Assembly (NCBI GenBank): GCA_937929885.1
Contig: CALFUQ010000089.1
Location: 1-33,459 of the forward strand
Direction: 5' to 3'
Source of the DNA: an uncultured Saprospiraceae bacterium
Lineage (GTDB): Bacteria > Bacteroidota > Bacteroidia > Chitinophagales > Saprospiraceae
DNA length: 33,459 bases
Notes under the pieces: model-generated
Seen by the model: the letters and a program-made list of their open reading frames with translations, nothing else
What the model was told of the DNA's origin: nothing
The model's database searches: none
Shown: in pieces, positions 5,914 through 24,299 of the stretch
Numbering within the stretch: position 1 is the first letter of the stretch
Layout of the letters: the number at the start of each line of letters is the position of its first letter
Made by a program: the position numbers and the translations under genes

Positions 5914-5949
5914 TAGTTAAGTTTGTTAACTATTTATAAAGTTAACTAA
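5914..5949. promoter_or_regulatory. Candidate operator O1, dyad TAGTTAA-N5-TTAACTA plus extra half-site
   Basis: In the 96-base divergent gap between the VOC gene and the E1 gene, TAGTTAA (5914-5920) and TTAACTA (5926-5932) form a perfect 7-base dyad with a 5-base spacer. A further TTAACTA half-site lies at 5942-5948. The same dyad with the same spacer occurs at 24281-24299 and in degenerate doubled form at 19423-19457. The size and symmetry suit a dimeric repressor or activator. No promoter box could be fixed with confidence. Confidence 0.6.
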
Positions 5950-5983
5950 TTTCTTGATTCTTAATTATTGTCCGTATTTGTTT

Positions 5984-8653
5984 ATGAATACCTCTAAAAA
6001 TAACATTGATTTAGTAGATATCGAGGTTAATGAATGGCTAGAATCTCTAGATGAATTTATAGACGATCTAGGTGAGCAAAAAACGGTGGAGCTGATGAAG
6101 ACTTTGAGGAATCATGCGCTGCGCCGTGGTATCAAATTAGTAGGAGAAGCGCTTAACACACCATACATTAATACTATCAATGTAAAACACCAGCCTCAAT
6201 ACCCAGGAGATACGGAGATTGAAACTAAAATCGAAAATATAAATCGGTGGAATGCCATGTGCGTAGTACTACAAGCCTACGATTCAGGTAAAGGCCTTGG
6301 AGGACATATTGCAACTTACGCTTCAGCCGCTACGATGTATGAAGTGGGCTATAATCATTTTTTTAGAAAGAAGAGTGAAGAATATGGGGGAGACTTAGTT
6401 TCGTTTCAACCACATGCTGCGCCTGGTATCTATGCTCGTGCCGTGCTAGAAGGTAGATTGACTATACAAGATCTTAAAAATTTCAGACGAGAGTTAAAGC
6501 CAGAGGGCGGTTTACCTTCTTATCCTCATCCACGACGGATGCCATGGTTTTGGGAAATTCCATCTGCTTCGATGGGGTTGATAGGTGTTTCTGCTATTTA
6601 TCAAGCAAGGTTTAAAAAGTACTTAGAGAATAGAGGCCTCAAAGAGAAAAATGGTGGTAAAGTCTGGGTTTTTGTTGGTGACGGTGAGATGGATGAACCA
6701 GAGACTTTGGGGACATTGAACATAGCAGTGCGAGAGCAATTGGATAATCTAGTTCTAATCGTTAACTGTAACCTGCAGAGATTAGATGGGCCTGTAAGGG
6801 GTAATGGGAAAATCATACAAGAGCTAGAGCGAAGTTTCCTAGGGGCGGGATGGAATGTGACAAAGGTGATATGGGGAAGCGAGTGGGACTCATTGTTGGA
6901 GAGAGATCACGATGGTATTCTAGTGGACAGAATGAATGAGGCATTGGATGGAGATTATCAGATGTATTCTGTTTTATCTGGTGAAAAAGTACGAGAGCAT
7001 TGGATAAAAGATAATCCTGAATTAGGGGATTTAATGCAATCGTTAACCGATGAAGAGATCAGAACGATAAAGCGCGGAGGACATGATGTGAAAAAAGTTT
7101 ATGCAGCATTTGATAAAGCGGCTCGACCTAATGGAAAGCCAAGTGTGATTCTCATGAAAACCATAAAAGGATATGGTATGGGTAAGGCTGGAGAAGGGAA
7201 GAATACCACTCATCAGAAAAAGAATATGAGTGAAGCAGAACGGATAGAAACGGCAACAAGACTTGGCATACCTCTCAGCGAAGCAGATGCTGCTAGCGCA
7301 AAATTTTATATACCAGCAGAAGATAGTCCTGAGATTCAATATTTGAAAAAAAGAAGGCAAGTTCTTGGAGGGTCTTTACCCGAGCGAACTGAGAGGGTGA
7401 AACCTATTGATCTTTTGCCTAAAGATATTTTTGCAGAGTTTGATAAGGGTTCTGGGAAAAGAGAGTTATCGACAACCATGGTGATGGTACGGATAATCTC
7501 TGTATTATTAAAAAACAAAGAAATAGGGAAGTACATCGTTCCGATCATCCCTGATGAAGCAAGGACATTTGGTTTAGATGGGCTTTTTAGATATGCAGGA
7601 ATCTATCAGCCAAAAGGGCAATTGTATGAGCCAGTAGATGCCGATACTTTAGCATACTACCGAGAAAGTACAGATGGGCAGATCCTACAAGAAGGAATTT
7701 GTGAAGCAGGAGCGATTGCATCATTCATGGCGGCAGGGACAGCTTATTCATTACATGGATTGCCAATGATTCCGTTTTATATTTTCTATTCGATCTTCGG
7801 ATTTCAACGGGTAGGTGATATGATCTGGGCCTGTGGTGACATGATGTGCAAAGGGTTTTTGCTTGGCGGAACTTCGGGACGCACAACACTCAATGGTGAA
7901 GGTGTCCAGCATCAAGATGGCCATTCACATGTACTAGCAAGTGTAATACCTAATCTAAAATCTTATGATCCTGCATTCGCTTATGAGCTAGCAGTAATCG
8001 TCAAGGATGGTATCGAACGAATGTATCATCACATGGAAAAGATATTTTATTACATCACCATCACCAACGAAAATATGCTCATGCCTCCAAGACCTAAGAA
8101 GGTAAAGGATGAAGATATCCTGAGAGGAGTATACAGATTTGAAGAAAGCAAAGGTAAGTCTGATAAGAAAGTACATTTACTTGGATCAGGAGCAATCATC
8201 ACCCAGACGCTTGCCGCAAAAGTGATGCTTGAAGAACTAGGAATAAGTGTAGACATGTGGAGTGTTACCAGCTATCAAGAATTGGAAAGAGATGCGACTG
8301 ATACAGAGCGAGAACATTTACTAAATCCAAATAGTAACCGTAAATCGATCTTAGAAGAGGTATTTGGAAAAGAAGAAGGGGTATTCGTTTCAACTTCTGA
8401 TTATATGAAAACAATGGGACTAGCACTCTCAAGATGGATGCCAGAATACTATGGTGTGCTAGGAACTGATGGCTTTGGTGTAAGTGAATCTAGAGAGACG
8501 CTGCGCGATCATTTTGAGGTGAGTCCTAAGTACATTGTTCTCGCTTCCTTGAATTTATTAGTAAAGAAAAGTGCTATCAATAAGACCGTGCTTACTAAGT
8601 TTATAAAGGATCAAAACATTTCAAAAGAAAAACTTAACCCTGCAACTTATTGA
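5984..8653 (+). CDS. aceE: Pyruvate dehydrogenase E1, homodimeric AceE type
   Basis: From ATG 5984 the protein is 889 residues, matching the roughly 887 of E. coli AceE; a longer reading from TTG 5954 adds ten residues without family support. Visible AceE features: GGHIATYASAA with the active-site-region His108, the ThDP motif GDGEMDEPETLG (232-243) with NCNLQRLDGP (261-270), and the GVQHQDGHSHVLAS loop typical of E1p. It decarboxylates a 2-oxoacid, normally pyruvate, and passes the acyl group to lipoyl-E2. Most Bacteroidota use the two-subunit E1, so a homodimeric one inside a catabolic operon is notable. It may serve pyruvate released by the lyase or aldolase, or a related 2-oxoacid such as 2-oxobutyrate. 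First gene of block B, under operator O1. Confidence 0.92.
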   Translation: MNTSKNNIDLVDIEVNEWLESLDEFIDDLGEQKTVELMKTLRNHALRRGIKLVGEALNTPYINTINVKHQPQYPGDTEIETKIENINRWNAMCVVLQAYDSGKGLGGHIATYASAATMYEVGYNHFFRKKSEEYGGDLVSFQPHAAPGIYARAVLEGRLTIQDLKNFRRELKPEGGLPSYPHPRRMPWFWEIPSASMGLIGVSAIYQARFKKYLENRGLKEKNGGKVWVFVGDGEMDEPETLGTLNIAVREQLDNLVLIVNCNLQRLDGPVRGNGKIIQELERSFLGAGWNVTKVIWGSEWDSLLERDHDGILVDRMNEALDGDYQMYSVLSGEKVREHWIKDNPELGDLMQSLTDEEIRTIKRGGHDVKKVYAAFDKAARPNGKPSVILMKTIKGYGMGKAGEGKNTTHQKKNMSEAERIETATRLGIPLSEADAASAKFYIPAEDSPEIQYLKKRRQVLGGSLPERTERVKPIDLLPKDIFAEFDKGSGKRELSTTMVMVRIISVLLKNKEIGKYIVPIIPDEARTFGLDGLFRYAGIYQPKGQLYEPVDADTLAYYRESTDGQILQEGICEAGAIASFMAAGTAYSLHGLPMIPFYIFYSIFGFQRVGDMIWACGDMMCKGFLLGGTSGRTTLNGEGVQHQDGHSHVLASVIPNLKSYDPAFAYELAVIVKDGIERMYHHMEKIFYYITITNENMLMPPRPKKVKDEDILRGVYRFEESKGKSDKKVHLLGSGAIITQTLAAKVMLEELGISVDMWSVTSYQELERDATDTEREHLLNPNSNRKSILEEVFGKEEGVFVSTSDYMKTMGLALSRWMPEYYGVLGTDGFGVSESRETLRDHFEVSPKYIVLASLNLLVKKSAINKTVLTKFIKDQNISKEKLNPATY

Positions 8654-8655
8654 TC

Positions 8656-9879
8656 ATGGCTAAGTTATTATTACCATCATTAGGAGAGGGCATCGAGAAA
8701 GGAACTATTGTTTCAGTACTCGTAAGTCAGGGTGATAATATCGAAAAGGAGCAGTCGGTGGTGGAAGTAGAAACAGACAAGGTAACTATGGAAGTGCCGA
8801 GTAGTTTGGAAGGTGTAATTGTAAAGATCCTAGTCAATGAAGGAGATGAAGTAGCGGTAGGTCAAGCTTTACTAGAGGTGGAGTCTGAAGGAGGTCAACC
8901 AGAGAAATCGGAAGAGAAGGCAGAAGTTGAAGTTGTAAAAGAAGAACCTCAAACAGATAACGAAACACCTCCCGATCAAACAGTCAAAAGAACAGAAATA
9001 CCACAGAATCCAGCTATAAGAAGAGAAAGGAAAGAAGGATTAAGAGTAACACCAAAAGCTCGAAAATTGGCTAGAGAATTAGGTGTAGGATTATCATCTG
9101 TAGCAACAGCTCAAGATGTGATATTAGAGGAAGATATAAAATATCATATCAAAGTATCTCCATTAAATAATGCGGCTACTCAATCAGCTTCCATCTTACC
9201 AAATTTCTCAGAGTGGGGTAATACTCATACAGAAAGCATGTCTGCTGTGATGAAGGCCACAGCGAAAAACATGATGCAATCGTGGAGAGAAATTCCTCAT
9301 GCATGGTTGCAAACTGAAGCAGATGTAACCGAAACAGAAATCCAAAGAAAGGAATTAAATAAGGTCTATGAATTGAAAATTTCATTGACAGTGTTTATAG
9401 CAAAGGCTGTAGCTAAAACCTTACAAGATTTTCCAAAGTTTAATAGTAGCATAGATTATCAGGCTCAAGAGATCATCTACAAGGACTTCATTAATATAGG
9501 TATAGCGGCAGATACAGAGCATGGATTATTTGTGCCAGTAATCAAGAATGTCGATCAGCTATCCCTGAGTCAGATCAGTACTTCATTAACTGATCTCGCG
9601 ACCAGAGCTAAAGACAAGAAATTAAAAATGGATGAACTCCAAGGCGGCAATTTTACTATTTCCAATTTAGGTGGATTTGGGACTACTGGAATATTTCCAG
9701 TGATCCTACCTCCTCAGGTTGCTATTCTTGGAGTAGCATCTTATCAAGTGAGAGAAGGTCGTAAGTTTCTTCCATTAACGATTGGGTTTGATCATAGAGT
9801 CATCGATGGAGCAGATGCAGGAAGGTTTCTTCAGCGATTGAACATTTACCTTGAAAACCCTCTTAAGCTTTTGGTGTAA
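8656..9879 (+). CDS. Dihydrolipoamide acyltransferase (E2) of 2-oxoacid dehydrogenase
   Basis: A 407-residue E2 starting at ATG 8656, two bases past the E1 stop. Domain order: one lipoyl domain (1-76) with Lys42 in VETDKVTMEV; a charged linker rich in Glu and Pro; a peripheral-subunit-binding domain around 129-163 (RVTPKARKLARELGV); and the catalytic domain to the end, with DHRVIDGADAGRF carrying His380 and Asp384. A single lipoyl domain and about 400 residues is the short E2 form, unlike the triple-lipoyl E. coli AceF. It acylates CoA from the E1 product. No lipoamide dehydrogenase (E3) is encoded in the window, so E3 must come from elsewhere in the genome. Confidence 0.92.
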   Translation: MAKLLLPSLGEGIEKGTIVSVLVSQGDNIEKEQSVVEVETDKVTMEVPSSLEGVIVKILVNEGDEVAVGQALLEVESEGGQPEKSEEKAEVEVVKEEPQTDNETPPDQTVKRTEIPQNPAIRRERKEGLRVTPKARKLARELGVGLSSVATAQDVILEEDIKYHIKVSPLNNAATQSASILPNFSEWGNTHTESMSAVMKATAKNMMQSWREIPHAWLQTEADVTETEIQRKELNKVYELKISLTVFIAKAVAKTLQDFPKFNSSIDYQAQEIIYKDFINIGIAADTEHGLFVPVIKNVDQLSLSQISTSLTDLATRAKDKKLKMDELQGGNFTISNLGGFGTTGIFPVILPPQVAILGVASYQVREGRKFLPLTIGFDHRVIDGADAGRFLQRLNIYLENPLKLLV

Positions 9880-9902
9880 AATTTAAAAGAAAAACGAATG
9901 CG

Positions 9903-10901
9903 ATGGATATAAACAATCCTATACATGTCAATACCTTCGAAGGACTATGCAACTATCTTCACACCGCAACCTTATGTAGTACCAATCTAGAGGCTACTAA
10001 AAAATTCTATGTGAGAGCAATGGGGATGACCATAGAAGGCCCTTTCGAATTGTCTGTTGATGAAATGAGTGGCCAACGAAATGTGTGGAATATTCCAGAT
10101 CATATTGATTACGATTATTATCTGATACATCGTCCCAGTGTTCCTAGTTTGGTGAATATCAGATTTTTGCATCTGAAGCAGGAGACTCCACACATTCATC
10201 AAAGTTATAGTTGCAGAGAATTAGGTTCTTTTTCATTAGGTTTTCCTAATGGCGATGTCCATGCTACGGATCAGCGAGTTGAAGATCAAGGGTTTGGTCG
10301 GATGGCTCCTTTGCAAGAAGGTGAAGTGACACGGGATGGTAAAACTTTTCCTTATTACGAAACCATCCATCAAGGACCTGATTTTGTACACTGTGTGAGT
10401 TTGGGAAGAGGAGGAGGTATGCCGCAGGTTTCTCCGATCGATGAAGAGACTAAGCTTGGGGGCCCAGGGTATTCGGCATTTGTAACTGATAATTCTGATG
10501 AAGAGTTAGCATTCTATTTAGATGTGATGGATATGAAATTTGGTTTTGATTGGGTTTGGGAAGCATCCCCAGGATCTGCTCTTGGAATTCCTGAAGGAGT
10601 GCCATTTAGATTTGCCGCAATCTATGCTAAAGGAGCAAGCCAAAATCATCTTTTGTTCCTCGATTATAAAGATGGTATATTCGAGAAGAGCGCTGCTCCT
10701 TCCAGAGTTCCAAATCAAGGAATAGGAATGTGGTCATTTGAAACAAAAAATATAGATATGGTTTTAGCTAATGCTAAACAACATAATGCAAAAGTGATAA
10801 CAAGTCCAACAAAGATTGTCGATCCTATTTTGGGATCAACCAAAACTATGACGATGGAAACACCAGGAGGGTTACTAATTGAAATATTTCAAACATTATG
10901 A
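9903..10901 (+). CDS. Two-domain VOC family protein, possible extradiol-type dioxygenase
   Basis: A 332-residue protein with two VOC modules. The first begins NYLHTATLCSTNLEATKKFY, with His20 at the usual first metal position; the second begins GPGYSAFVTDNSDEELAFY, and the protein ends METPGGLLIEIFQTL, where Glu in the last strand is a typical metal ligand. Length matches two-domain extradiol dioxygenases and related enzymes. It lies 23 bases after E2, and its stop overlaps the next start by 4 bases. It is not an obvious copy of the VOC protein at 4928-5887. Ring opening, isomerisation or lyase activity are all possible; the cluster suggests an oxygenolytic or epimerising step on the unknown substrate. 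Confidence 0.8.
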   Translation: MDINNPIHVNTFEGLCNYLHTATLCSTNLEATKKFYVRAMGMTIEGPFELSVDEMSGQRNVWNIPDHIDYDYYLIHRPSVPSLVNIRFLHLKQETPHIHQSYSCRELGSFSLGFPNGDVHATDQRVEDQGFGRMAPLQEGEVTRDGKTFPYYETIHQGPDFVHCVSLGRGGGMPQVSPIDEETKLGGPGYSAFVTDNSDEELAFYLDVMDMKFGFDWVWEASPGSALGIPEGVPFRFAAIYAKGASQNHLLFLDYKDGIFEKSAAPSRVPNQGIGMWSFETKNIDMVLANAKQHNAKVITSPTKIVDPILGSTKTMTMETPGGLLIEIFQTL

Positions 10902-11479
10902 GTGAGAAAATAGCTATATCGATTCTGCAGGAGTTTGTAGAAATCCTAAGCGGGACACTTGACAATATAGATCAAGTGATTGAGGAGAAAGCAAGTGGAA
11001 ATCAAGTACACCCCTATGCAAAGCATGTTACCAGTGACTGTACACATATCGTCAGGAATTTTCCTGAGGACGATAGAGGAAGATATATTTTAGAAGAAAG
11101 TTATTACACATATCCTGGAGAAGAAATGATCATAAAACCTCTGTTGTTTTATGTAACGGAGAAAGAAGGAACAGTTTATCTGAATTCTGTAACGGTACCT
11201 GAGAGATTAGATCCTGCGAAAGTCATAAATGCTAATAAAGAGTTATTCTTCGAACATGATGAACTGCATATCAAACCAACATTTGGAGCAGCGCCATATA
11301 AATTTAACCCTGAGAAAAGGCATTTTACAACAGATCATAAATGTGAGTTCATGCCTGGCCTTCACTTCAGATTGACAGAGACCTTAGAACATGGCAAGTT
11401 AAGTGTGATGGAAACTTGGATAAAAGATGGCGTAGTAACTACACCTTACAATACTCCAATTATTTACATAAAACAGTAA
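10898..11479 (+). CDS. Unknown 193-residue protein, weak CpcT/CpeT resemblance
   Basis: I do not recognise this gene firmly. The 193-residue product has no signal peptide or membrane segment and looks like an all-beta cytoplasmic protein. It opens ILQEFVEILSGTLDNIDQVI, which recalls the opening helix of CpcT/CpeT-type proteins, where a gap-and-Gln pattern follows a W/L-G element; GRYILEESYYTYPGEEM also resembles the beta strands of that fold. Two Cys residues (in TSDCTHIV and HKCEFMPG) are present. The start overlaps the VOC stop as ATGA and the MFS start is 2 bases after its stop, so it is part of the operon. A small ligand-binding or lyase-like calycin protein is one reading. Confidence 0.6.
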   Translation: MSEKIAISILQEFVEILSGTLDNIDQVIEEKASGNQVHPYAKHVTSDCTHIVRNFPEDDRGRYILEESYYTYPGEEMIIKPLLFYVTEKEGTVYLNSVTVPERLDPAKVINANKELFFEHDELHIKPTFGAAPYKFNPEKRHFTTDHKCEFMPGLHFRLTETLEHGKLSVMETWIKDGVVTTPYNTPIIYIKQ

Positions 11480-11481
11480 GT

Positions 11482-12690
11482 ATGAAAGCTTCAGATATCA
11501 AAATGCTCTTGGGTATTCCATTGTTTGGAATGGTCTTCTTAGCAGTCACAAATGGGATGACCTTCTCTGGTCTTACCGTATTTGATGAAGCGCTTATTGG
11601 TGATTTTGATTGGTCCAAGGCCCAACTCAAATTGAGAGATACTATCAATCTTTGGGTAGCTGCTTTGATCATGCCATTCATGGGAGCTATTATCGATAAG
11701 TATGGAGTTAAGACTACTTTTTCAATTGGTCTGGTATTGTTATCAGGTGTTATTTATGGCTATAGTGTAATAGGATCTGCCACGCATATGTATCTGCTTC
11801 ACGTGATAATGGCGTTTGCTTTGGCTGGTGCGGGGACACTCGCAGCTGTAATTATGGTATCGCAGCGGGTCTCAGAAAATAGAGGCGCAGCTATAGGTGT
11901 GGCACTTGCAGGAACAAGTTTAGGAGGTTACATTATGCCCAAAGTTGGAGGCTGGTTGTTAGAAGAGTTTGGATGGCGACAAGCATTTAGATATGAAGCA
12001 ATTCTTCCCTTAATTATGCTGTTTTTAGTTTGGATTTTCATAAAATCATCGGGTACCAAAAACAAAGATGGAAAAAGTAAGACTGATGACCTAGTAGAAT
12101 TGACATTTGCCGATGCGCTAAAGACCAAACAGTTTTGGCTGCTTTGTATTATTGGGTTTTTCACCTACTACAGTATTATGGGAGGGTATCTCAATTTGTT
12201 TTTATACATAAGGGAATTAGGGTTAACTACAGACGATGCTATCAAAGGTCTCGGATATATGTCATTATTTATTCTAGGTGCAAAATTCTTATCTGGATTT
12301 TTGACGAGCTACATAGACAAATACACCCTATTCAAAATTCAGGTCTTTATCATGATGTTAGGAGCGATTGGGTTTTCACTTTATAGTACATCGCTTGTAT
12401 GGTATGCGATTCCTTTATTTGCCATAGGATGGGGTGGGCTTTACACTTTGATCAATTACATTATCATCACAACTTTTGGTATAAACTCAGCAGGTAAGAT
12501 TGGCGGTACGATTTCATTATTTGAAAGTTTGGGAGCTGGACTAGGCATATCATTATCAGCTTACATTGCAGATAAATCTGGAACTTACGCTATGAGTTTT
12601 AAAGTAATAGCTTTGTTTCTGTTAATAGGTTTGATATTATCATTTTTCATAAGCCCTGTAAAAGAAGATGCAAGTACGGAACCCACGTAA
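11482..12690 (+). CDS. MFS transporter
   Basis: From ATG 11482 the protein is 402 residues with about twelve hydrophobic segments and the MFS loop motif GAIIDKYGVKTTFS between segments 2 and 3. A longer reading from 11416 would run through the previous gene's end and adds a hydrophilic stretch without MFS character, so 11482 is preferred. The protein resembles monocarboxylate/oxalate-type MFS carriers only in general form. It lies 2 bases after the preceding stop and its last 23 bases overlap the aldehyde dehydrogenase. Probable role: inner-membrane import of the substrate or a breakdown acid, or export of a by-product. Block C has a second MFS protein of a different subfamily. Confidence 0.88.
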   Translation: MKASDIKMLLGIPLFGMVFLAVTNGMTFSGLTVFDEALIGDFDWSKAQLKLRDTINLWVAALIMPFMGAIIDKYGVKTTFSIGLVLLSGVIYGYSVIGSATHMYLLHVIMAFALAGAGTLAAVIMVSQRVSENRGAAIGVALAGTSLGGYIMPKVGGWLLEEFGWRQAFRYEAILPLIMLFLVWIFIKSSGTKNKDGKSKTDDLVELTFADALKTKQFWLLCIIGFFTYYSIMGGYLNLFLYIRELGLTTDDAIKGLGYMSLFILGAKFLSGFLTSYIDKYTLFKIQVFIMMLGAIGFSLYSTSLVWYAIPLFAIGWGGLYTLINYIIITTFGINSAGKIGGTISLFESLGAGLGISLSAYIADKSGTYAMSFKVIALFLLIGLILSFFISPVKEDASTEPT

Positions 12691-14092
12691 TGGAAAGTAT
12701 GACTATGAGTTAGTTGTAGATAGTCCTGAGCAAGTAGGCCAAAAAAGCAAAGACCTAAGATCAGCACAAGCATCTTGGAATAGTGAAGGTGTAAACGCCA
12801 GGGTAAATGTCTTGCTTAAGCTAGCAGAAAAATTAGAAGAGCAAAAAGAAGATATCATAAACCAACTCTCTATAGATACAGGTCGTCGAAAGATAAGTCG
12901 GATAGAGTTTGATGGTGCAATTGGTCTCATAAAGGGAAGATGTTTTAGCGTACCAAAGTTGATGGAAGAGATACCTGTTAGAGATTCTTTTTCTAATCCT
13001 ACTGTAAGAATCAAACAACAGCAGGTTCCATATGAATTAGTCGGTGTGATAAGCCCTTGGAATTTTCCATTGTTGCTAGCGCTAATTGATACTGTGCCTG
13101 CCTTGTTAGCTGGTTGCACAGTGTTGCTTAAGCCAAGTGAAGTAACACCAAGATTTATTGATCCGCTAGAAGCGATCGTTGAAGCAATGCCTGAGTTGTC
13201 TAGAGTATTGAAATTTGTACGAGGTGGTGCTGAGAGCGGTGCGGCTTTAGTTGACAATGTAGATGTGATTTGTTTCACAGGAAGTGTTGCAACAGGCAAA
13301 ATCATAGCTATGAATGCTGCGAAAAATTTTATACCTGCTTTCTTGGAGTTGGGTGGTAAGGATCCTGCGATAGTCATGGCAGATGCTGATCTAGAGGTAG
13401 CAGCAGATGCGGTAATCAGAAGTGCTGCAGGCGCCACAGGGCAAGCTTGTCAATCACTAGAGAGAATCTATGTAGATCATACGATTTATGATGCATTTGT
13501 AGAATTACTATGCAAAAAGATTGAGCAGATCAACTATAATAGTAATTATGAGAAAGGTGGGACGATGGGTCCCTTGATTTTTGATAAGCAAGCTACTAAG
13601 ATCGAAAATCAATTAAAAGATGCCATTGCGAAAGGCGCTAAGATTGAAACAGGTGGGACCGTAGATAATATAAATGGAGGATCATGGATGATGCCTACTG
13701 TCGTTATTGATGTTAATCACAGTATGAGTTTAATGACGGAAGAGACCTTTGGTCCAGTCATTCCAGTCATGTCCTATAATAATCTAGATGAGGCGATTAG
13801 ATTAGCTAACGATTCAAATTATGGTTTATCTGGCTCTGTATTTTCTGGTGATGTAGAAGAGGCGATTAGAGTCGCTTCGTTAATTGATGCAGGCGGCATG
13901 AGTATCAATGATGGAAGTCTCACCAATCAAGTTTTTGACGCCACAAAGAACTCTTTTAAGTTATCTGGCTTAAATGGCTCTCGTATGGGGAATAATGGAT
14001 TTACCAGATTCTTTAGGACTAAGGCTTTGCTGATACAGACTGCTCACCCTCAGAGTATTCATTCTCAGGAAGAGGATAGCTCTTCTGTCTGA
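12668..14092 (+). CDS. NAD(P)-dependent aldehyde dehydrogenase
   Basis: A 474-residue aldehyde dehydrogenase. Seen: SPWNFP (129-134), KPSE (155-158), FTGSVATGK (203-211), catalytic Glu227 in LELGGKDPA, catalytic Cys261 in GATGQACQSLERIYV, and EETFGPVIPV near the C-terminus. The start at 12668 lies inside the MFS gene, but the N-terminus RNPRNGKYDYEL is the normal ALDH opening, so the 23-base overlap is probably real. It oxidises an aldehyde to an acid with NAD(P)+; the aldehyde is unknown. The stop codon TGA at 14090-14092 falls inside the left arm of a palindromic repeat (14085-14192), so the last few residues may have been altered by repeat insertion. Confidence 0.92.
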   Translation: MQVRNPRNGKYDYELVVDSPEQVGQKSKDLRSAQASWNSEGVNARVNVLLKLAEKLEEQKEDIINQLSIDTGRRKISRIEFDGAIGLIKGRCFSVPKLMEEIPVRDSFSNPTVRIKQQQVPYELVGVISPWNFPLLLALIDTVPALLAGCTVLLKPSEVTPRFIDPLEAIVEAMPELSRVLKFVRGGAESGAALVDNVDVICFTGSVATGKIIAMNAAKNFIPAFLELGGKDPAIVMADADLEVAADAVIRSAAGATGQACQSLERIYVDHTIYDAFVELLCKKIEQINYNSNYEKGGTMGPLIFDKQATKIENQLKDAIAKGAKIETGGTVDNINGGSWMMPTVVIDVNHSMSLMTEETFGPVIPVMSYNNLDEAIRLANDSNYGLSGSVFSGDVEEAIRVASLIDAGGMSINDGSLTNQVFDATKNSFKLSGLNGSRMGNNGFTRFFRTKALLIQTAHPQSIHSQEEDSSSV

Positions 14093-14234: not shown

Positions 14235-14846
14235 TCATATCTCATCCAACAACTCATTGAACTCCACCAAGAAACCATCAGGGTCATAAAAAGTACTTAC
14301 TAAAACTTTGATCTTACCACCATCATAACCAGGATACTCTACATGCTTAGGCGCAGTAAAAACCTCAATTCCAGGAATTGCTTTTATCTCCTCAAACTTT
14401 TTTTTGACATCATGGCTGTTGAATAGCAGCACGATATTTTGGGCAGTGAAGCCTTCTTTTCTTACAGCCTTTTCTTCTATGTCTTCTCCGTAATAATATT
14501 CCAATAGTCCTAGGACGCCATAGAACTCATGCGTTGCTTTAAGAAAAACTAAACGTAATGTTTGTTCTCCTTCTTTACCATCTTTTCTAGGTCGCTTTAA
14601 TTGGTTGTCATAAATGACTTTCATGCCCAGTGCATCTTTGTAGAGTTTGAGTGAGGTCTCTAGATCCCTTACTATTAATGTAGTCCGTCTCAGCACCAAT
14701 GGGAAATCTTTTGGCTGAGCAGTGATATTAAATATTTGCTCTTCTGTCAATGCCGGCGCGTTTGAAGATTGATTTTGAACGATCTTTTTAGATGCACATG
14801 AGCTTATGAACAAAAGAAGGCTAAATAGGAAGAATATATTTTTCAT
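14235..14846 (-). CDS. VOC-domain lipoprotein
   Basis: A 203-residue protein with a lipoprotein signal, FLFSLLLFISSCASKK, lipid attachment expected at Cys17. A single VOC module follows from about residue 50: PLVLRRTTLIVRDLETSLKL opens it and FYDPDGFLVEFNELLDEI closes it, with the closing Glu in the metal-ligand position. It is therefore predicted to sit outside the cytoplasm, which is unusual for VOC enzymes. Its start overlaps the stop of the next VOC lipoprotein gene by 4 bases, so the pair is probably made together and may form one two-module site. It is the last gene of block C. Substrate binding or a periplasmic conversion step are possible. Confidence 0.8.
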   Translation of the reverse strand: MKNIFFLFSLLLFISSCASKKIVQNQSSNAPALTEEQIFNITAQPKDFPLVLRRTTLIVRDLETSLKLYKDALGMKVIYDNQLKRPRKDGKEGEQTLRLVFLKATHEFYGVLGLLEYYYGEDIEEKAVRKEGFTAQNIVLLFNSHDVKKKFEEIKAIPGIEVFTAPKHVEYPGYDGGKIKVLVSTFYDPDGFLVEFNELLDEI

Positions 14847-15385: not shown

Positions 15386-15405
15386 TTTAGATATTTAAGT
15401 AATTA

Positions 15406-16422: not shown

Positions 16423-16426
16423 ATAA

Positions 16427-17341
16427 TTAGTGTGAACTAGATGCTTTACCTCTTACTGTTTTCTTTTCTTTTTCATCCATATGCTTCTTGAATACAGTCC
16501 AGCTTGTTTCGTTAACTCTATTGTCTGTTAATGGCGGAGGAGTATTGTATAGCGGATATCTTTCGTCCATTATTTTTTGAAGTCTTGGCCAGATCTCTGA
16601 TTTGTCAAAAGTACTGTAACCTGTTGCATTGAAAACCATGATTCCTGATTTGCTTCCCATCTCCATCCATGGTAGCCACTGAGCTACTCTAGTCCAAGCA
16701 ATATTTGATTGACCTAGTCTCTTCACATTAGGATCTGTAATTTCTTTGGCATCATATGCTGTATTGAATATTTCCATTGCATGGTATGCTCCACCGACAT
16801 AAACTTGATAATCGCTTCCAAGTGGATTGTCATAAAACAACGGGATCTCATCAGAGGTAAATGCGATTTTGCCATATACTCTTAAATCATAAGGATACGG
16901 ATCTGTGCCATCCGCGTTTTTTTCATATCGCATGCCTCTCATATTTACTGGATCATTTGCAACATGTAAAACTGGTACTTCTTCTCCCGACCAAGGGTTA
17001 GTCCATACATCCATAATTTCATTTGTTTCAGGATCTAGGTACATCATAATCTCTCTTGATACACTTTTGAAACCTTTGCCTCGTACAGGATCATTGCCAG
17101 TAACGCATTGTCTGGTATTGACTCCGACAAGATTAAATAGGTGTTTGTCTTTTTCACCTGGCACACGACTATAAGCTCTTCCTTCCCACATGCCATATCT
17201 AGTGATTCCTTCTTCGGTAGTTCCGCAAGTCGCTTTCATTCGTGCCGCGAAAGCTTCAGCTCCAGTTAAGGATTGTGATTGGCTATTGACTAAAGATGGT
17301 AGCCAAAGAAGCGCGACCATTACTATTAATATTCCTTTCAT
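16427..17341 (-). CDS. Exported DUF1838-like protein
   Basis: A 304-residue protein with a Sec signal (MKGILIVMVALLWLPSLVNS, cleavage likely before QSQSL). The body has GMWEGRAYSRVPGEKDKHLF, then MMYLDPETNEIMDVWTNPW and VLHVANDPVN, a pattern I associate with the DUF1838 family, whose function is unknown. A related, more diverged protein is encoded at 20603-21472. No catalytic motif stands out; conserved Trp and aromatic residues suggest a ligand-binding beta-rich domain. It is expected in the periplasm. It is placed between the lipoprotein at 17353 and the MDR reductase, so it belongs to the same operon and probably handles the substrate before import. Confidence 0.7.
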   Translation of the reverse strand: MKGILIVMVALLWLPSLVNSQSQSLTGAEAFAARMKATCGTTEEGITRYGMWEGRAYSRVPGEKDKHLFNLVGVNTRQCVTGNDPVRGKGFKSVSREIMMYLDPETNEIMDVWTNPWSGEEVPVLHVANDPVNMRGMRYEKNADGTDPYPYDLRVYGKIAFTSDEIPLFYDNPLGSDYQVYVGGAYHAMEIFNTAYDAKEITDPNVKRLGQSNIAWTRVAQWLPWMEMGSKSGIMVFNATGYSTFDKSEIWPRLQKIMDERYPLYNTPPPLTDNRVNETSWTVFKKHMDEKEKKTVRGKASSSH

Positions 17342-17352
17342 TTTAAGTATTT

Positions 17353-18114
17353 TTATTGATTATAAGTTAATACAAATAAACTATCTGGAAGCTCTTCATT
17401 AACTTCGAAATCTGTCCAGATTACTTCATTAGTTTTAATGTCATTATAAAATAATTCTACAAGACCAGATTGAAGCCAAGTATATTTTTCTTTCTCAAAA
17501 AAGTTAGAGTATAACCTATGATGCCACCCTCGGGGAGTATCAAAAGCTACCTTGACAATCTTGAAATCACCTAAAGTGATATCAAAAAATGTCTCGCCTT
17601 TATTAGGGTCGATTACTTTGACGGTGGCGGTGTTTTGATTTTTAATCATGTCCTCACCGACAATCGAAATTTCATATCCTTCTTCTAGTGTATGCCTGAT
17701 AGCCCCATAACCAAAAGCAGATGACCACATGTTATCAGCTTCGGATTTTTCTTGCTTACCATTTAGATCATAGGTATTGTTCCCATCAAAACTCAGTAAG
17801 ATTTTAGGGATCCCTTCTCTAATAGATTCTATTTTAACTTTTCCTGTTGCAATATGTGCATCTTCTTTTTTTGATGCATAGACACGCCACATATTGTGAA
17901 TTTCATTGTGCAATGTGTCCTTCCCTTGATAAAAGTTCGCATGACCTTTAAGGGTTAGGCTCTTCGGGTTTTTCCAAAAATCTCCACCCGCTTTGGCGTG
18001 TGCTTTTTGCATTATCTCCTTAGCCGTAATGTTATGATTTATATCTGTACGTCTATCATTATGACAACTGGTCATTACTATTGTTATGAGGAATATGTAA
18101 GCTGTAGTTTTCAT
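17353..18114 (-). CDS. Lipoprotein of unknown function, LolA-like appearance
   Basis: A 253-residue protein with lipoprotein signal (IFLITIVMTSC, Cys17). After a helix AKEIMQKAHAKAGG it is rich in alternating strands, KVKIESIREGIPKILLSF, TYDLNGKQEKSEADN, ATVKVIDPNKGETFFDITL, resembling proteins with a LolA/LppX-like open barrel that binds hydrophobic molecules. I do not recognise a specific family. Its start overlaps the stop of the MFS gene (ATGA), so the two are coupled. A role in holding or delivering a hydrophobic substrate for the MFS carrier is a reasonable guess only. Confidence 0.65.
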   Translation of the reverse strand: MKTTAYIFLITIVMTSCHNDRRTDINHNITAKEIMQKAHAKAGGDFWKNPKSLTLKGHANFYQGKDTLHNEIHNMWRVYASKKEDAHIATGKVKIESIREGIPKILLSFDGNNTYDLNGKQEKSEADNMWSSAFGYGAIRHTLEEGYEISIVGEDMIKNQNTATVKVIDPNKGETFFDITLGDFKIVKVAFDTPRGWHHRLYSNFFEKEKYTWLQSGLVELFYNDIKTNEVIWTDFEVNEELPDSLFVLTYNQ

Positions 18115-19379
18115 AAAGTAATGGGTTGTGAAACCCTTTTGATCTCAGGTATGAAAATGTGAATAATCAACACAGATAGGATATGTAAAAATGCAACTAT
18201 GACGAACACTGGAGAGTAACTTATGTTATCAACAAGCCATCCTATCACAGGAGTAAATAGCATCGCCCCAAAACTACCAGCAGAGCCAGATATTCCCCAA
18301 ACTGATGCAGCATTCTTACTATCAAAAAGATCAACAGGAATTGTGAATAGAGATGACTGCTTGAATTGTGTACTAAACAATGCTACTGAGATAAAAAAGA
18401 TAGCCCACATAGGAGATTCTACAAATAAACACATTAAAACAGGTACCACTAAGATTGCACCTATCCACATCACTCTTTTCCTAGATTGGTCGAGTGACAT
18501 GCCTTTTTCCATAAGCCTTGATCCTGTCCATCCTCCTGCAATACTTCCTATATCAGCAGCTAGAAAAGGAATCCAAGAAAATAGTCCGATTTGTAAAAGA
18601 TCAAATCCTTTTACATCAACTAAGTAACTTGGTAGCCAGAAAATAAAAAAGTAGAAAGCACCATCAGAAACAAATCTTGATAAGCCTACACCCCATACTT
18701 CTTTGTATTTTAAATAATCTGTCCAAGGTAATTTTTCATAGCTGTCACTTTCATCATTGATCTTTCGTATAAGTTCTTTTTCTTTAGTGCCGAGCTTTGG
18801 GTGGCGTTCTGGATCATGATAAATTATCTGCCATATTATTAACCAAACAAAACCGATTAAACCTGTAATAACAAATGCCATTCTCCATCCAAACTGATAA
18901 ATTAAAAATGCCATGAGTGGGGGAGCGATAATTGCACCAAGACCAGGTCCCATATTTAGTATGCCAGTTGCTTTAGTTCTTTCCTCTTGCGGAAACCACT
19001 TAGAGATGGCTTTCATCGCTGCGGGGAAATTTGCCGCTTCTCCAATTCCCAACAAAAATCTTAAACCAACAAAGCTCATAAAGCCTTTCCCAATGGCGTG
19101 CGCGATGCTTGCAATAGACCACCAAACCACCGCAATAGAAAATCCTTTCTTGATTCCAATTTTATCTATAAGGTTGCCTGAAACAAATTGCATAATGGCA
19201 TAAGCGAGTAAGAATGCAGAGACTATCCATCCGTATTGTTCATTGCTGATAGATAGATCTTCTTTGATGTAAGGTGCTGCTACGGAGAGTGCTTGTCTAT
19301 CTATATAATTGATAGTAGTAGCGATAAAGATGGTGCCTATGATCCACCATCTTACATTAGATCTATTTTGTTCAGGCAA
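18111..19379 (-). CDS. MFS transporter, anion:cation symporter (ACS) type
   Basis: A 422-residue carrier with about twelve membrane segments. NYIDRQALSVAAPYIKEDLSIS in segment 1, GNLIDKIGIKKGFS in the 2-3 loop and GIGEAANFPAAMKAISKWFP in segment 4 mark the ACS subfamily (hexuronate, galactonate and other organic-anion uptake). The substrate is thus probably an organic anion. It is the first gene of block C, directly downstream of the divergent region with candidate operator O2. It is a different subfamily from the MFS protein in block B, so the island may import two different anions, or import one and export another. Confidence 0.9.
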   Translation of the reverse strand: MPEQNRSNVRWWIIGTIFIATTINYIDRQALSVAAPYIKEDLSISNEQYGWIVSAFLLAYAIMQFVSGNLIDKIGIKKGFSIAVVWWSIASIAHAIGKGFMSFVGLRFLLGIGEAANFPAAMKAISKWFPQEERTKATGILNMGPGLGAIIAPPLMAFLIYQFGWRMAFVITGLIGFVWLIIWQIIYHDPERHPKLGTKEKELIRKINDESDSYEKLPWTDYLKYKEVWGVGLSRFVSDGAFYFFIFWLPSYLVDVKGFDLLQIGLFSWIPFLAADIGSIAGGWTGSRLMEKGMSLDQSRKRVMWIGAILVVPVLMCLFVESPMWAIFFISVALFSTQFKQSSLFTIPVDLFDSKNAASVWGISGSAGSFGAMLFTPVIGWLVDNISYSPVFVIVAFLHILSVLIIHIFIPEIKRVSQPITL

Positions 19380-19422: not shown

Positions 19423-19457
19423 TAGTTAAACACATTAATAATTAATAATATTAACTA
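19423..19457. promoter_or_regulatory. Candidate operator O2, two overlapping degenerate dyads
   Basis: In the 96-base divergent gap between the MFS gene and the CpcT-like gene, TAGTTAA (19423-19429) is followed after 5 bases by TTAATAA, and TAATTAA (19439-19445) is followed after 5 bases by TTAACTA (19451-19457). Each dyad has one exact half-site of the TAGTTAA-N5-TTAACTA pattern of O1 and O3 and one degenerate half. Two adjacent weaker sites suggest cooperative binding by the same regulator. Confidence 0.5.
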
Positions 19458-19475: not shown

Positions 19476-20546
19476 ATGTCAAAATTATGTAGTTCCTCTT
19501 TGTGCCTTTTGAGTGTTATCCTACTAATAAACTGTTCTCATACGAATCAAGCAGAAAAAGAAAAGCCTTCGGTTGTCTATGCAAGTTTTGGCGGTTCACC
19601 AATAGACGAAGAAGCTGAAAGAAAATATACTTTAATGGAGCGCGAGATAGAATATCTTATGGACATGTGGGAAGGTGACTATGATAATGTGGAGCAACTA
19701 TCATTCGAGTCTGATCGTGGTATGAAAGACCAAACACAGGGACAACATAAGAGAATTCACAGTGAAATATCTAAGTTTAAGAACGATGTAATTGGGGAGC
19801 ATTTACTTTATATCAATGAATATGAAAATAACGATCCTAAAAATAAATTTCGTGAGTATCTATATAAGTTCATACCTGAAGACAGCACAAAACAAATCAG
19901 AATGGAGATGTATAAGTTTAAAGAGGCAAGTAAGGTTCGCAATAAAGAGGCACTTTCAAAACTTAAGTTTTCCTCTTTAGAGGCTTTAGATGATTGCAAT
20001 GTATTCATACATAGAGAAGGAAGATCATTTGTTGGAAAAACTAATGCTGGGCCTTGTGGTTCGGATATTTCTGATGCTTCTTCTTTTACTTACCAAGTAA
20101 AAATTGAAAAAAATCACTATGCTTTTAAATACACTAGGAATAATGGAAATTCAATTGGACAAGCCATTAACGAAGACTGGTATTTGCTAGACAAGTCCAG
20201 GTGCTTTGTTTGTATGATCGATTTTCCTAGAGAAGAGGGAGGACGACCAGTTGATACAAGACATTACATAGAAGTGCATGATCAGGGAGGTCAATTCGAA
20301 TTTGATTATTTAGATGGTAGACATATGGTATTCACTATGCGCAATACTTGGTCATATGGCATGAAACGAAATACTTTCGTGATCGTACTTCAAGAAGGTA
20401 GTCTTAAGGGCAAAACATTGATCTATGCTTGGGGAGAAGATGAAGCAGATAGGATAGGGATGAATCCTGGTTGGATTAGAGTCCAGTGCGATCTTAAGGA
20501 TGGTAAGAATGCGGACTTGCAGCAAAGGCTTAGGCCTGATTCGTAG
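19476..20546 (+). CDS. CpcT/CpeT-like chromophore-lyase-family lipoprotein
   Basis: A 356-residue lipoprotein (signal MSKLCSSSLCLLSVILLINC, lipidation at Cys20). The body matches the CpcT/CpeT pattern: an opening YLMDMWEGDYDNVEQLSF, a His-rich KRIHSE segment, IRMEMYKFKEA, then DCNVFIHREGRSFVGKTN and PCGSDISDASSFTYQVKIE. In cyanobacteria these proteins attach bilins to phycobiliprotein; they have a calycin-like barrel with a bilin pocket. This copy has a lipoprotein anchor and lies in a heterotroph's catabolic island, so binding a bilin-like or other hydrophobic ligand at the membrane is more likely than attachment. It stands alone on its strand, divergent from the ACS carrier, and ends at a shared terminator. 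Family call is moderate. Confidence 0.7.
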   Translation: MSKLCSSSLCLLSVILLINCSHTNQAEKEKPSVVYASFGGSPIDEEAERKYTLMEREIEYLMDMWEGDYDNVEQLSFESDRGMKDQTQGQHKRIHSEISKFKNDVIGEHLLYINEYENNDPKNKFREYLYKFIPEDSTKQIRMEMYKFKEASKVRNKEALSKLKFSSLEALDDCNVFIHREGRSFVGKTNAGPCGSDISDASSFTYQVKIEKNHYAFKYTRNNGNSIGQAINEDWYLLDKSRCFVCMIDFPREEGGRPVDTRHYIEVHDQGGQFEFDYLDGRHMVFTMRNTWSYGMKRNTFVIVLQEGSLKGKTLIYAWGEDEADRIGMNPGWIRVQCDLKDGKNADLQQRLRPDS

Positions 20547-20554
20547 CATAAAAA

Positions 20555-20602: not shown

Positions 20603-21472
20603 TCATTTTCCCCATCCCAATCCTGCCTCTCCTTTTTGTAATGCTCTTACTTCTGCTACATTAGCTGGAGGTTTTAGCCACTTCGGTTTATCTGCTTTTG
20701 CCCAGGTTAGTATTTGCTCTGGAAATTCATCTTGACTCTCTACTCTCCATGAGTGAAGATGGATAATTGCCCTACCGTCTCCTGCCCATTTAGGCAAGGC
20801 TCCATATCTTGCCCAGCTCATCTGATGAGGTTCTTCCACTGAGCCCTCAGGATGAAAGAAGAAATCATAATTTTCCCAAGCTTGGTATTGCCCACCAGAT
20901 GGAAGAGGGAAGTCAAGAAATACAGATGCGTTGTAAATATAGGTTGAGCCTAATTTTCGGTAAGGAATTCCATCCTCAGCTTTGATTGTTTGAATCCTGT
21001 CTCCCACACCTTGTTCGACATCGCCATATATTCGATCATTTTCGAATCGGTAAGTTATCATTTGATATGGGTAGGCTATTGGTTCTACTTTATTTCCATT
21101 GTACTCTTTGATGACTTCTCCTGTTATTGGGTCGGTATAAGCAAAGGTCTTACGAGTGAGATGTATAATTTCCCCATCTTTTTCGTCTGGCCAAATACTA
21201 GTAGAACTATCAAAACCTATCATACCAAATAGTTTTTTGCCAGATGGGTATTCATAAACTCCGCCATCAGCAATCCAGTGCACAGCTTCTCCTGTTCCTG
21301 CTCGACCATCAACCCATACTTTTAAAACTTCAGGTGCGGCTTTATACGACGCTTTGTTATTTTTAGTGGATTTTGTAGTTGGTACTTCTGCTGTTTTTAA
21401 AGTGCTTGTTTTATTTACACTACCACAACTTAGTACTATAAATGCAACGATCAATAATGGAATTAGTCTCAT
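20603..21472 (-). CDS. DUF1838-like lipoprotein
   Basis: A 289-residue lipoprotein (signal LIPLLIVAFIVLSCGS, Cys16) with a Lys/Thr-rich linker to about residue 45. The domain has AVHWIADGGVYEYPSGKKLF, then KTFAYTDPITGEVIKEYNG and EPIAYPYQMITYRF, matching in order the GMWEGRAYSR, YLDPETNEIMDVWTNP and VLHVANDPVN segments of the protein at 16427-17341. The two look like distant paralogues, one lipidated, one free. It lies 80 bases downstream of the TonB-dependent receptor, separated from it by an intrinsic terminator, so it probably has its own promoter. Likely periplasmic side of a membrane. Function unknown. Confidence 0.65.
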   Translation of the reverse strand: MRLIPLLIVAFIVLSCGSVNKTSTLKTAEVPTTKSTKNNKASYKAAPEVLKVWVDGRAGTGEAVHWIADGGVYEYPSGKKLFGMIGFDSSTSIWPDEKDGEIIHLTRKTFAYTDPITGEVIKEYNGNKVEPIAYPYQMITYRFENDRIYGDVEQGVGDRIQTIKAEDGIPYRKLGSTYIYNASVFLDFPLPSGGQYQAWENYDFFFHPEGSVEEPHQMSWARYGALPKWAGDGRAIIHLHSWRVESQDEFPEQILTWAKADKPKWLKPPANVAEVRALQKGEAGLGWGK

Positions 21473-21500
21473 ATCTTTTAGTTAGTAATTAATATAAAAA

Positions 21501-21524
21501 GGCATCTTCAATATTGAAGATGCC
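21501..21524 (-). terminator. Intrinsic terminator after the TonB-dependent receptor
   Basis: A perfect 24-base palindrome with arms GGCATCTTCAAT and ATTGAAGATGCC lies 28 bases past the receptor stop and is followed on the minus strand by TTTTTATATT. This separates the receptor transcript from the DUF1838-like gene. Confidence 0.85.
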
Positions 21525-21552
21525 CTATATGAAAAAACTATTAAGTTATATT

Positions 21553-24234
21553 TTAGAAATCATAACCTACTGTGAATAATATTCTTCTAGGAATTTGTAC
21601 AACTCCAAAGCCCAGCTGTCCTGTGAAGTCTGGAGTCTTTTGTTTTTGTACTAATACTGTGTCATTTGTACTACCTAATACTAATTGTTGAGGACCTGCT
21701 GAGTCAAACAAATTCTTTATTCTCAACCCAATCTTAACTCCATTGCCATTGTTTAAGCCAATTTTGTAATTGACATATGCATTAGATATAGTAAGGTCTG
21801 GCGTCTCAATCAAGTTTAATGAAGTAGCATACCTACCTTGATACGTGACCATGTCAAACCCTAAGCCAAAGCTTGAGATATTATATCCAGCGTTGAATGA
21901 GAAAATAAAACTAGGAGTGTTATGAACCTGGTTTCCAGTTACATCAACTGCATAACGATTAGAAGCAGCATCGATTGTTACCAGTTCTAATCCGAAAAGG
22001 TTATCAAGATTTGCTTCAGGAATCATAGGAGTAGTCTCATCTCCATCATGATCTACGTTATCAAGTGCTATCTGCAATCCATCATACTGAGATGCTTGCA
22101 TAGTTGCACTAGCTCTCAGTAAAAGCCCTTTAACAGCTTGAGGTGCAAAAGTTAACTGAAACTCGGCTCCTCTAACAGTATTAGTTCCTACTGGTCGAGG
22201 TACAAAAGTTTGACCTCCAGTAGCCATTGGGTCAAAAACCGTCGCAATCCTATTATTTATAACTGTATTAAACAATCCTATATCTGCACCTAGATCACCT
22301 ATGCCAAATCTGAAACCTACTTCTGTATTAAATACTATTTCATCTTTTTCAGGTAGTGGAGTAGCTAGACCAACTGAAGGCAAAGAGAATGCTCTTACAA
22401 AACTACCATATACTGCAGATCTATCATTAAGCAAATAATTTAAACCAATCGATCCAGAAAAATTAGAGAAGTCTAATTCATTTTCAATAAGCTCAGCTGG
22501 AGCATAGTCTATACTTCCTATCTTGTCAGGATCATTATTGAAAAATCCTGTCATCTGGTCAAATCTTACCCCTACGTTGACACTTAGCTTATCGTTGAAT
22601 ACCATCTCATCTCCTGCAAAGAAACTAAGTACATTTTCTTCCTGATGAGAAGTTGTGCTAGAGAGGGAGAACGCTGTTGGCGGAGGGGTGCCTGGAGGGC
22701 CAAACCATCCGTATGTCGGTCGAGGGTCTACATTAGCGGTGTACCAGTGAAGCCCACCAAATCTATCATACTTTGCTCTACTCACATACATACCTACACT
22801 GATAAGATGTTTAGAAGATGCACCTCCCGCTTCAAACTGAAGTCTAGTTTCGTTAATAAAATCACCGATGTTTCCGATAGAATTTGCATTAAGTCTCAGC
22901 ATACTGGTCGCAGCTGTGTAGAAACTTGAGAAGGTAATCTCATTATGATCACGCCAATCATAGCTTGATATTCTCATTTTCTGAATCAACTTAGCACTAC
23001 CACCTAATCCAAATTCAGCAGAGATACCAAACAAGCCACCATTTACTTCTTCTCTATTTGCATTGGCTTGGTTTTGTTGGATCTCATTTCCATTTACATC
23101 AGTTACAGGTTGTGTGAATTGCACTGGCGCAAATGCACTTGTTCTCAGTGTTGAAACAAAATTAAGTTGGCTATTATCTGGGTAGAAAGTATTATTATTA
23201 CTCCAACCAGATGCAAGTTGTCCTGCTCCAACATCCCATGGAGAATCCGTTAAATTATTAAATTGGTTATTACCAACTATCCCATAAATTCTGATCTTAC
23301 TGTCATCTGAAATTTTGAAATCTAGATTTCCACTTAGCTGACCTCCCTTATCTTTAATAGCCCATTCCTTATATCCTGCATCCTCCATAATGTATCCACC
23401 TAAACTAAAGCCTACTTTATCAGATAGAGGTCCATTTATGTTGAAATCCATTCTATAATCAAAAGAGCCTTCATTAGGATGACCATCTCCCATTACGTTA
23501 TTTAGCTTTGTAAATGAAACACTGCCTCCAAACTCCTCACCCGCAGACCTAGATATTAAATTGACTGCTCCTGCTCCTGCTGCTCTACCAAATAATGTAG
23601 CTCCACTTCCTCTTACCACTTCCACTCTTTCAATATTTTTGTCAAGAGCCATATATTCATTAGTCCCTGCTGATCTAGAGGCAAACCCATTTAAAGGTAA
23701 ACCGTCTATTAAAGTGGTCACATAAGTATTACCAGATGGGAATCCTCGTATGTTATAGGATGATTTTCTACCCTGACTGTTATCAACGGTAACTCCTGGT
23801 GTTGCTACCAAGGCTTCAGCTACGGATTCCGCTTGCATATTAGTTAGCTCTTCAGAACCGATCGTAGTAATGGCAGTTGTTGTTTGTATTTTTCTTACTG
23901 GTTGTCTAGTTGCTGTCACAACTATGTCTGATAAAGTAGTTGCGTCCGTTTCTAACGATATGTTAGCAACTCCACCACCTACTGTAACCTCAGTGGTTCG
24001 CATACCTACATAACTAATAACAAGCATATCACCAGATGAAGCAGTGACAGAATAGTTACCATCAATATCAGTAATGGTTCCTGTATTTGTGCCTTTTACT
24101 ATTACGGATGCACCAATCAGTGGTTCTCCATCATCTCCTGTTACATTTCCTGTAACACTTTGAGCTGCGATAGTAGATATTGACAACCCAAAAACCAGGA
24201 GCATTAATAATGAATTATAAATAGATCTTTTCAT
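21553..24234 (-). CDS. TonB-dependent outer-membrane receptor
   Basis: An 893-residue receptor. Signal peptide 1-24 (LMLLVFGLSISTIAAQ); carboxypeptidase-regulatory-like domain about 26-100 (VTGNVTGDDGEPLIGASVIV); plug domain about 110-230 with GVTVDNSQGRKSSYNIRGFP and VEVVRGSGATLFGRAAGAGA; a 22-strand-type barrel to the C-terminal Phe (RRILFTVGYDF). There is no SusD-like gene next to it and its length is below the usual 1000 of SusC proteins, so it resembles FecA/FhuA-type receptors for small, bulky molecules such as iron chelates, cobalamin, haem or aromatic compounds. It is divergent from block F at operator O3, implying it is induced with the pathway and imports the pathway's substrate. 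Confidence 0.93.
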   Translation of the reverse strand: MKRSIYNSLLMLLVFGLSISTIAAQSVTGNVTGDDGEPLIGASVIVKGTNTGTITDIDGNYSVTASSGDMLVISYVGMRTTEVTVGGGVANISLETDATTLSDIVVTATRQPVRKIQTTTAITTIGSEELTNMQAESVAEALVATPGVTVDNSQGRKSSYNIRGFPSGNTYVTTLIDGLPLNGFASRSAGTNEYMALDKNIERVEVVRGSGATLFGRAAGAGAVNLISRSAGEEFGGSVSFTKLNNVMGDGHPNEGSFDYRMDFNINGPLSDKVGFSLGGYIMEDAGYKEWAIKDKGGQLSGNLDFKISDDSKIRIYGIVGNNQFNNLTDSPWDVGAGQLASGWSNNNTFYPDNSQLNFVSTLRTSAFAPVQFTQPVTDVNGNEIQQNQANANREEVNGGLFGISAEFGLGGSAKLIQKMRISSYDWRDHNEITFSSFYTAATSMLRLNANSIGNIGDFINETRLQFEAGGASSKHLISVGMYVSRAKYDRFGGLHWYTANVDPRPTYGWFGPPGTPPPTAFSLSSTTSHQEENVLSFFAGDEMVFNDKLSVNVGVRFDQMTGFFNNDPDKIGSIDYAPAELIENELDFSNFSGSIGLNYLLNDRSAVYGSFVRAFSLPSVGLATPLPEKDEIVFNTEVGFRFGIGDLGADIGLFNTVINNRIATVFDPMATGGQTFVPRPVGTNTVRGAEFQLTFAPQAVKGLLLRASATMQASQYDGLQIALDNVDHDGDETTPMIPEANLDNLFGLELVTIDAASNRYAVDVTGNQVHNTPSFIFSFNAGYNISSFGLGFDMVTYQGRYATSLNLIETPDLTISNAYVNYKIGLNNGNGVKIGLRIKNLFDSAGPQQLVLGSTNDTVLVQKQKTPDFTGQLGFGVVQIPRRILFTVGYDF

Positions 24235-24280
24235 TTTATATATTTTACTCAGAATAAATATATATAATTAACCTGATTAA

Positions 24281-24299
24281 TAGTTAACTTAATTAACTA
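24281..24299. promoter_or_regulatory. Candidate operator O3, perfect dyad TAGTTAA-N5-TTAACTA
   Basis: TAGTTAA (24281-24287), spacer CTTAA, TTAACTA (24293-24299): identical in both arms and spacer length to O1 at 5914-5932. It lies in the 99-base divergent gap between the receptor and the DUF3598-like gene. An additional TTAA-N5-TTAA lies just to its left (24269-24280). Confidence 0.6.

Follow-up and report, generated by a model that had tools for sequence, protein, structure and literature searches.

Several characterised regulators of the MarR family offer points of comparison for the locus described here. CouR, which governs p-coumarate catabolism in Rhodococcus jostii RHA1, acts within a divergent gap of 31 bp on an inverted repeat whose halves are 5 bp apart, and represses both divergent promoters until released by a pathway compound, its ligand being p-coumaroyl-CoA (excerpts of PMC4737184). 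The PII site of MexR from Pseudomonas aeruginosa reads TAGTTGA-CCTTA-TCAAC, its inverted GTTGA repeats being separated by 5 bp (PMC9892617).

The regulon proposed here resembles that of CouR in having a MarR regulator, a catabolic function, several operators, a 5-bp spacer and one operator serving divergent promoters. It differs in its half-site (TAGTTAAY versus ATTGA) and in the host, CouR coming from an actinobacterium; moreover, a 16-bp tandem is not described for CouR in the excerpts considered (PMC4737184). MexR shares the 5-bp spacing, and its half-site, TAGTTGA, is similar to but not the same as TAGTTAA; however, MexR controls an efflux pump and the flanks of its repeat are asymmetric. 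YvmB (PchR) of Bacillus subtilis is likewise a MarR-family protein that is autoregulated and controls a small regulon through palindromic boxes, with several boxes per promoter (PMC4992311), but its 14-bp box (GTTYMMYMGTAAAC) is different, its regulon is biosynthetic and one of its targets is activated. Finally, BilQ, from the bilirubin-reductase operon, is a MarR regulator adjoining bile-pigment metabolism genes and its profile weakly matches the MarR protein discussed below, whereas its hosts are gut Firmicutes and its pathway is reductive, with BilR/BilS (PMC10769871). The assignment of our MarR protein as a BilQ equivalog was rejected (NCBIfam NF045593, 33.2 bits versus a cut-off of 125).

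The window, i.e., the whole stretch of 33,459 nucleotides that was analysed, makes up all of contig C89 in a Saprospiraceae MAG of 4.13 Mb and 421 contigs that is 89.5% complete. The original prediction held that one dyad, TAGTTAA-N5-TTAACTA, is present at the only three divergent gaps of the window, twice exactly and once as a degenerate pair. The ORF layout did yield only three such gaps (5887|5954, 19379|19476 and 24234|24334), with the dyads inside them. Both exact copies were found by pattern search, at 5914-5932 between VOC_A and the AceE-like gene (TAGTTAAGTTTGTTAACTA) and at 24281-24299 between the TonB receptor and DUF3598 genes (TAGTTAACTTAATTAACTA); we consider them predicted primary operators, which, as for the other dyads, are assigned to neither strand. 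The MFS2 / CpeT gap contains the degenerate pair, a double operator whose overlapping halves lie in a 16-bp register at 19423-19441 (2 mismatches) and 19439-19457 (1 mismatch). Weaker secondary dyads, each matching at 10 of 14 positions, were located 16 bp to the right of the first exact site (5930-5948) and 16 bp to the left of the second (24265-24283). Dyads with up to 3 mismatches were not enriched in the window (6 versus 3.8 expected; 19 of 100 shuffles reached 6); this count being ordinary, the case rests on exact matches and placement. The 5-base spacer was kept, as predicted, but its bases are not free to differ: the outer ones were Y...R in nearly all sites, and dyad position 8 was C or T in 39 of 42 readings of the half-site. 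TAGTTAAY-N3-RTTAACTA therefore describes the element more accurately.

The three gaps had been expected to stand ahead of about thirty genes, in agreement with the 29-30 counted from the ORF layout. To the left of the first gap, a predicted operon on the minus strand (109-5887) comprises VOC_A, an HMG-CoA-lyase-like protein, LeuC1, a four-helix IVP, LeuD1, a CMD-family protein and a CoA transferase III, and this gene order was kept behind a dyad in genomes G081, G031, G038 and G354. The four-helix protein (2362-2721), located between LeuC1 and LeuD1, belongs to the 23S-rRNA-intervening-sequence family PF05635, and was absent from the LeuC1-LeuD1 operons examined in relatives. To the right, the predicted plus-strand operon (5954-14092) encodes an AceE-like E1, an E2 acyltransferase, VOC_B, an unknown protein of 193 aa, an MFS protein and an aldehyde dehydrogenase. 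The second gap separates a predicted minus-strand operon (14235-19379; MFS2, an unknown lipoprotein, DUF1838, an MDR reductase and two VOC lipoproteins) from a plus-strand gene for a CpeT/CpcT-family lipoprotein (19476-20546; PF06206, 46.7 bits). The third separates a TonB-dependent receptor and a DUF1838-family lipoprotein (20603-24234, minus strand, predicted operon) from a predicted plus-strand operon (24334-32390) of DUF3598, LeuC2, a flavin amine oxidase, LeuD2, an HpcH/HpaI aldolase, HapK, an SDR and hydantoinase A. The order of these last genes was the same in G031, with a dyad directly ahead, and in G081, with the TonB receptor first. Hydantoinase B was present in the islands of relatives and gave no match in the MAG itself, in a search of this 89.5% complete assembly run without a positive control.

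The exact dyad occurred four times in the whole 4.13-Mb assembly, twice in the window and at C204:1196 and C211:4115, versus 0.07-0.09 copies expected from Markov models of orders 1-3 built from other contigs of the same genome. Contigs C204 and C211 carry genes of kinds also present in the window, namely for VOC proteins, MDR oxidoreductases and an MFS transporter. A fifth, double site, flanked by a CpeT-family lipoprotein gene and a DUF1838 gene, was observed at C51:2182-2216, so that all four exact sites and this one adjoin genes of the same families. In an unbiased count of 6-bp palindromic dyads with gaps of 0-15, AGTTAA-N5-TTAACT ranked first in the intergenic DNA of this genome and, independently, in that of its relatives. 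As the dyad read backwards, used as a control pattern, also gave 2 exact matches in the same genome, the raw count alone is weak evidence, and placement and conservation carry the case. Matches with 2 mismatches in the same genome, apart from the C51 double site, were rejected as regulon members: their neighbours were unrelated and about half lay inside ORFs.

Placement bore directly on whether the dyad is as common within genes as between them. Across the islands retrieved, none of the 41 exact or one-mismatch sites (31 and 10, respectively) was genic, although 92% of island DNA is coding, and 29 of them lay in divergent gaps. This tally left out one MarR contig with no near-exact sites, as well as G049:C190 and G326:C218, whose exact sites lie away from recognised island genes. 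These last two dyads (G049:C190:41964 and G326:C218:7129) are intergenic, in MarR-positive genomes, with neighbours lacking recognised island homologues, and are possibly extra regulon members or chance matches; their position counts against the MarR reading set out below. A search for the Bacteroidota-type promoter TAnnTTTG beside the dyads gave only scattered matches in an inconsistent register.

Conservation in orthologous divergent regions extended to other genera. The dyad was kept in the orthologous VOC_A / AceE-like gap of G081, G031, G038, G354 and G211, and in the orthologous TonB receptor / DUF3598 gap of G031. In G081, G031, G354 and G211, the whole predicted regulon, including a MarR gene, forms one cluster of 40-65 kb in which every orthologous promoter has a dyad. 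The clusters G081:C8 and G031:C12 (about 40 kb each) carry dyads in the MDR330 / hydrolase and VOC_A / VOC_B gaps, at the TonB receptor or DUF3598 gene, and ahead of hydantoinase B. The full island and MarR are found on a single contig at G354:C14:58870-117863 (L110-L113; about 58-119 kb), with eight dyads of the refined pattern, MDR330 being preceded by a double operator; this locus is a better reference than the fragmented genome of the window.

The presence of the dyad also followed that of the MarR gene. Among 149 relatives, five genomes had at least two exact dyads (G000, G081, G031, G049 and G038), and these same five were the only ones with a MarR of 59% identity or more. Among 398 genomes of the family, with MarR called at E up to 1e-25, the refined pattern TAGTTAAY-N3-RTTAACTA occurred in 13 of the 26 MarR-positive genomes and in 2 of the 372 others (31 and 2 sites, respectively), while 370 genomes had neither; the Fisher p-value of 1.2e-15 is optimistic, as the species are related. 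All eight genomes with at least two copies were MarR-positive, and all nine with the closest MarR had the dyad. Within genera, G031 has both MarR and the dyad and the other g32 genomes have neither, and the same contrast was observed for G081 versus G230 and G211 versus G057. The reversed pattern showed no association with MarR, which was present in 3 of about 26 genomes with such matches. The island gene HapK was accompanied by MarR in all 17 genomes carrying it. No dyad was found in three GC-rich genomes (G039:C33, G199:C140 and G427:C9; L081, L124 and L125), which have a MarR of about 42% identity and a reduced, one-direction island; these islands count against the MarR reading unless the operator has drifted, as it probably has there. 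In three other islands (G014:C224, G303:C268 and G222:C52; L076, L118 and L114), two divergent MarR paralogues lie a few kb apart with dyads near.

The double site at 19423-19457 had been noted once, in one gap. The site is real but is not a special case, since the tandem is general: 28 of the 41 sites had a second dyad (at least 9 of 14 positions) exactly 16 bp to one side, and the double operator itself recurred in the same register at C51:2182-2216 and G354:C14:115207-115241. The mean match at 16 bp was 8.5, versus 5.6 (sd 0.5) at non-overlapping distances; beside an exact primary dyad, the secondary one can reach a maximum of about 11 positions because three bases are shared. Offsets of 4, 9, 13, 25 and 29 bp also scored high and were rejected, being explained by self-similarity of the dyad, so that only 16 bp is independent. 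Eight orthologous MDR330 / hydrolase gaps aligned poorly except over the tandem operator, with the secondary dyad on the MDR330 side. An offset of 16 bp amounts to some one and a half turns, which would put two dimers on more or less opposite faces.

The regulator had been predicted to lie outside the window, and a candidate was found on contig C211. This gene (C211:1478-1954, L017, minus strand) encodes a MarR-family protein of 158 aa (PF12802, 36.0 bits, cut-off 27; PF01047, 23.4 bits, just under the cut-off of 24.6), a size that fits small single-domain MarR proteins (about 140-170 aa). Its PDB matches were PA3341, SlyA and HpaR, and the recognition-helix segment VTRAN(I/V)TNL was identical in the eight closest orthologues. 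It is the third gene of an operon (MDR330, VOC361, MarR and CN hydrolase) whose promoter gap contains the exact dyad C211:4115-4133, kept in eight genera; MarR should therefore regulate itself.

The view that the shared dyad is the site of one regulator uniting one regulon is supported by placement, conservation and genomic linkage to MarR, which, like the sites themselves and the 16-bp tandem, were directly observed; neither of the two outcomes named beforehand as refuting that view, a dyad as common within genes as between them or one lost from orthologous divergent regions, was obtained. We consider it highly probable that a single MarR-family repressor uses the dyad as its operator and controls one catabolic regulon, with a spacing like that of CouR and MexR operators. 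MarR proteins characteristically bind as dimers and leave their operators upon ligand binding or oxidation. Here, each TAGTTAAY half-site would receive one winged helix of a MarR dimer, and the weaker dyad at 16 bp would be taken by a second dimer, to one side of the first. Sitting in the gaps, which span about 60-100 bp, MarR would block both divergent promoters until released by a pathway compound, upon which uptake, oxidation, hydration and aldol cleavage would be switched on together. Binding of MarR to the dyad, repression rather than activation, autoregulation and the ligand are what we infer.

An alternative, which we regard as unlikely, is that MarR binds the dyad as an activator, or with a sign that varies by promoter. 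Some MarR proteins do activate, and YvmB represses several genes but activates yisI (PMC4992311); however, the sites lie near start codons in short divergent gaps, where a steric block is the simplest mode of action, and most characterised MarR regulators are repressors, according to the excerpts of PMC4737184. It also seems improbable that the shared operator, though genuine, is read by another regulator elsewhere in the genome, with MarR as an island passenger that has its own site. Because MarR and the island travel together, finding the dyad along with MarR may reflect island presence and cannot separate MarR from another dyad reader present in every island, and the scan for DNA-binding families covered island proteins. 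Nevertheless, MarR was the only such family detected in that scan, which included the unlabelled genes of the complete islands covered; the near absence of the dyad from MarR-negative genomes fits a regulator travelling with its sites, not a housekeeping factor; and an inverted repeat spaced by 5 bp agrees with characterised MarR sites. That the dyads are AT-rich palindromes arisen by chance, terminators or copies of a dispersed repeat, with no regulatory role, is hardly credible, despite the reversed-pattern matches, the background character of matches with at least 2 mismatches and the single exact matches in MarR-negative genomes (G020, G034, G024, G073, G090 and G092), given the excess of exact copies, the intergenic position of all near-exact island sites, a control pattern unrelated to MarR, a conserved block that is the dyad and not a longer repeat, the absence of a GC-rich stem with a T run, and conservation at orthologous promoters.

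The families gathered by the proposed MarR repressor's operator include a TonB receptor, MFS, CpeT/CpcT, DUF3598, DUF1838 and HapK proteins, flavin amine oxidases, two LeuCD pairs, HMG-CoA-lyase-like and HpcH/HpaI lyases, a CoA transferase III, the AceE-like complex, hydantoinase A and a CN hydrolase. In addition, a PuuE-allantoinase-like protein is encoded on C51 and in G354, and G354 encodes an amidase of the isochorismatase family whose relatives include N-carbamoylsarcosine amidohydrolase and 3uao, the maleamate amidase NicF. This gene content is compatible with a route degrading a cyclic imide, for example a substituted maleimide, and as a set resembles a pathway leading from imide to maleate. 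The genes concerned are located at 19476-20546, 24334-24840 and 26171-28858 of the window, L018:399-1322 and L112:14186-14848 (CpeT, DUF3598, duplicated LeuCD, PuuE-like and isochorismatase-like). The presence of CpeT-type folds alongside imide enzymes suggests linear tetrapyrroles as the substrate; an aromatic acid is the alternative substrate class. We tentatively propose, as a possibility, that the regulon encodes all that is needed to degrade a linear tetrapyrrole (a phycobilin or a chlorophyll catabolite) aerobically, with MarR sensing a pathway intermediate. Following uptake by the TonB receptor and MFS proteins, the substrate would be handled by CpeT/DUF3598-type ligand-binding proteins and cleaved oxidatively to substituted maleimides. 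The PuuE-like, isochorismatase-like, hydantoinase and CN hydrolase enzymes would hydrolyse imide and maleamate; the two LeuCD pairs would then hydrate the products, and the HMGL- and HpcH-type lyases would perform aldol cleavage to pyruvate and acids. Neither this regulon nor a tetrapyrrole-to-maleate pathway was described in the literature searched, which did not extend to subscription papers.

As a MarR regulon this is ordinary in kind, and what makes it valuable is the undescribed pathway that the operator delimits. Some thirty genes that lay scattered and whose roles are unclear (among them CpeT, DUF1838, DUF3598, HapK, VOCs and the LeuCD duplicates) come together as one regulon in about ten genera of Saprospiraceae. 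The operator can also be used to look for missing pathway genes where metagenome assemblies are fragmented, four contigs having been linked here, and the MarR sensor offers an experimental route to the substrate through ligand screening. With a candidate regulator and its operator, about thirty poorly understood catabolic genes may thus be treated as one switchable pathway.
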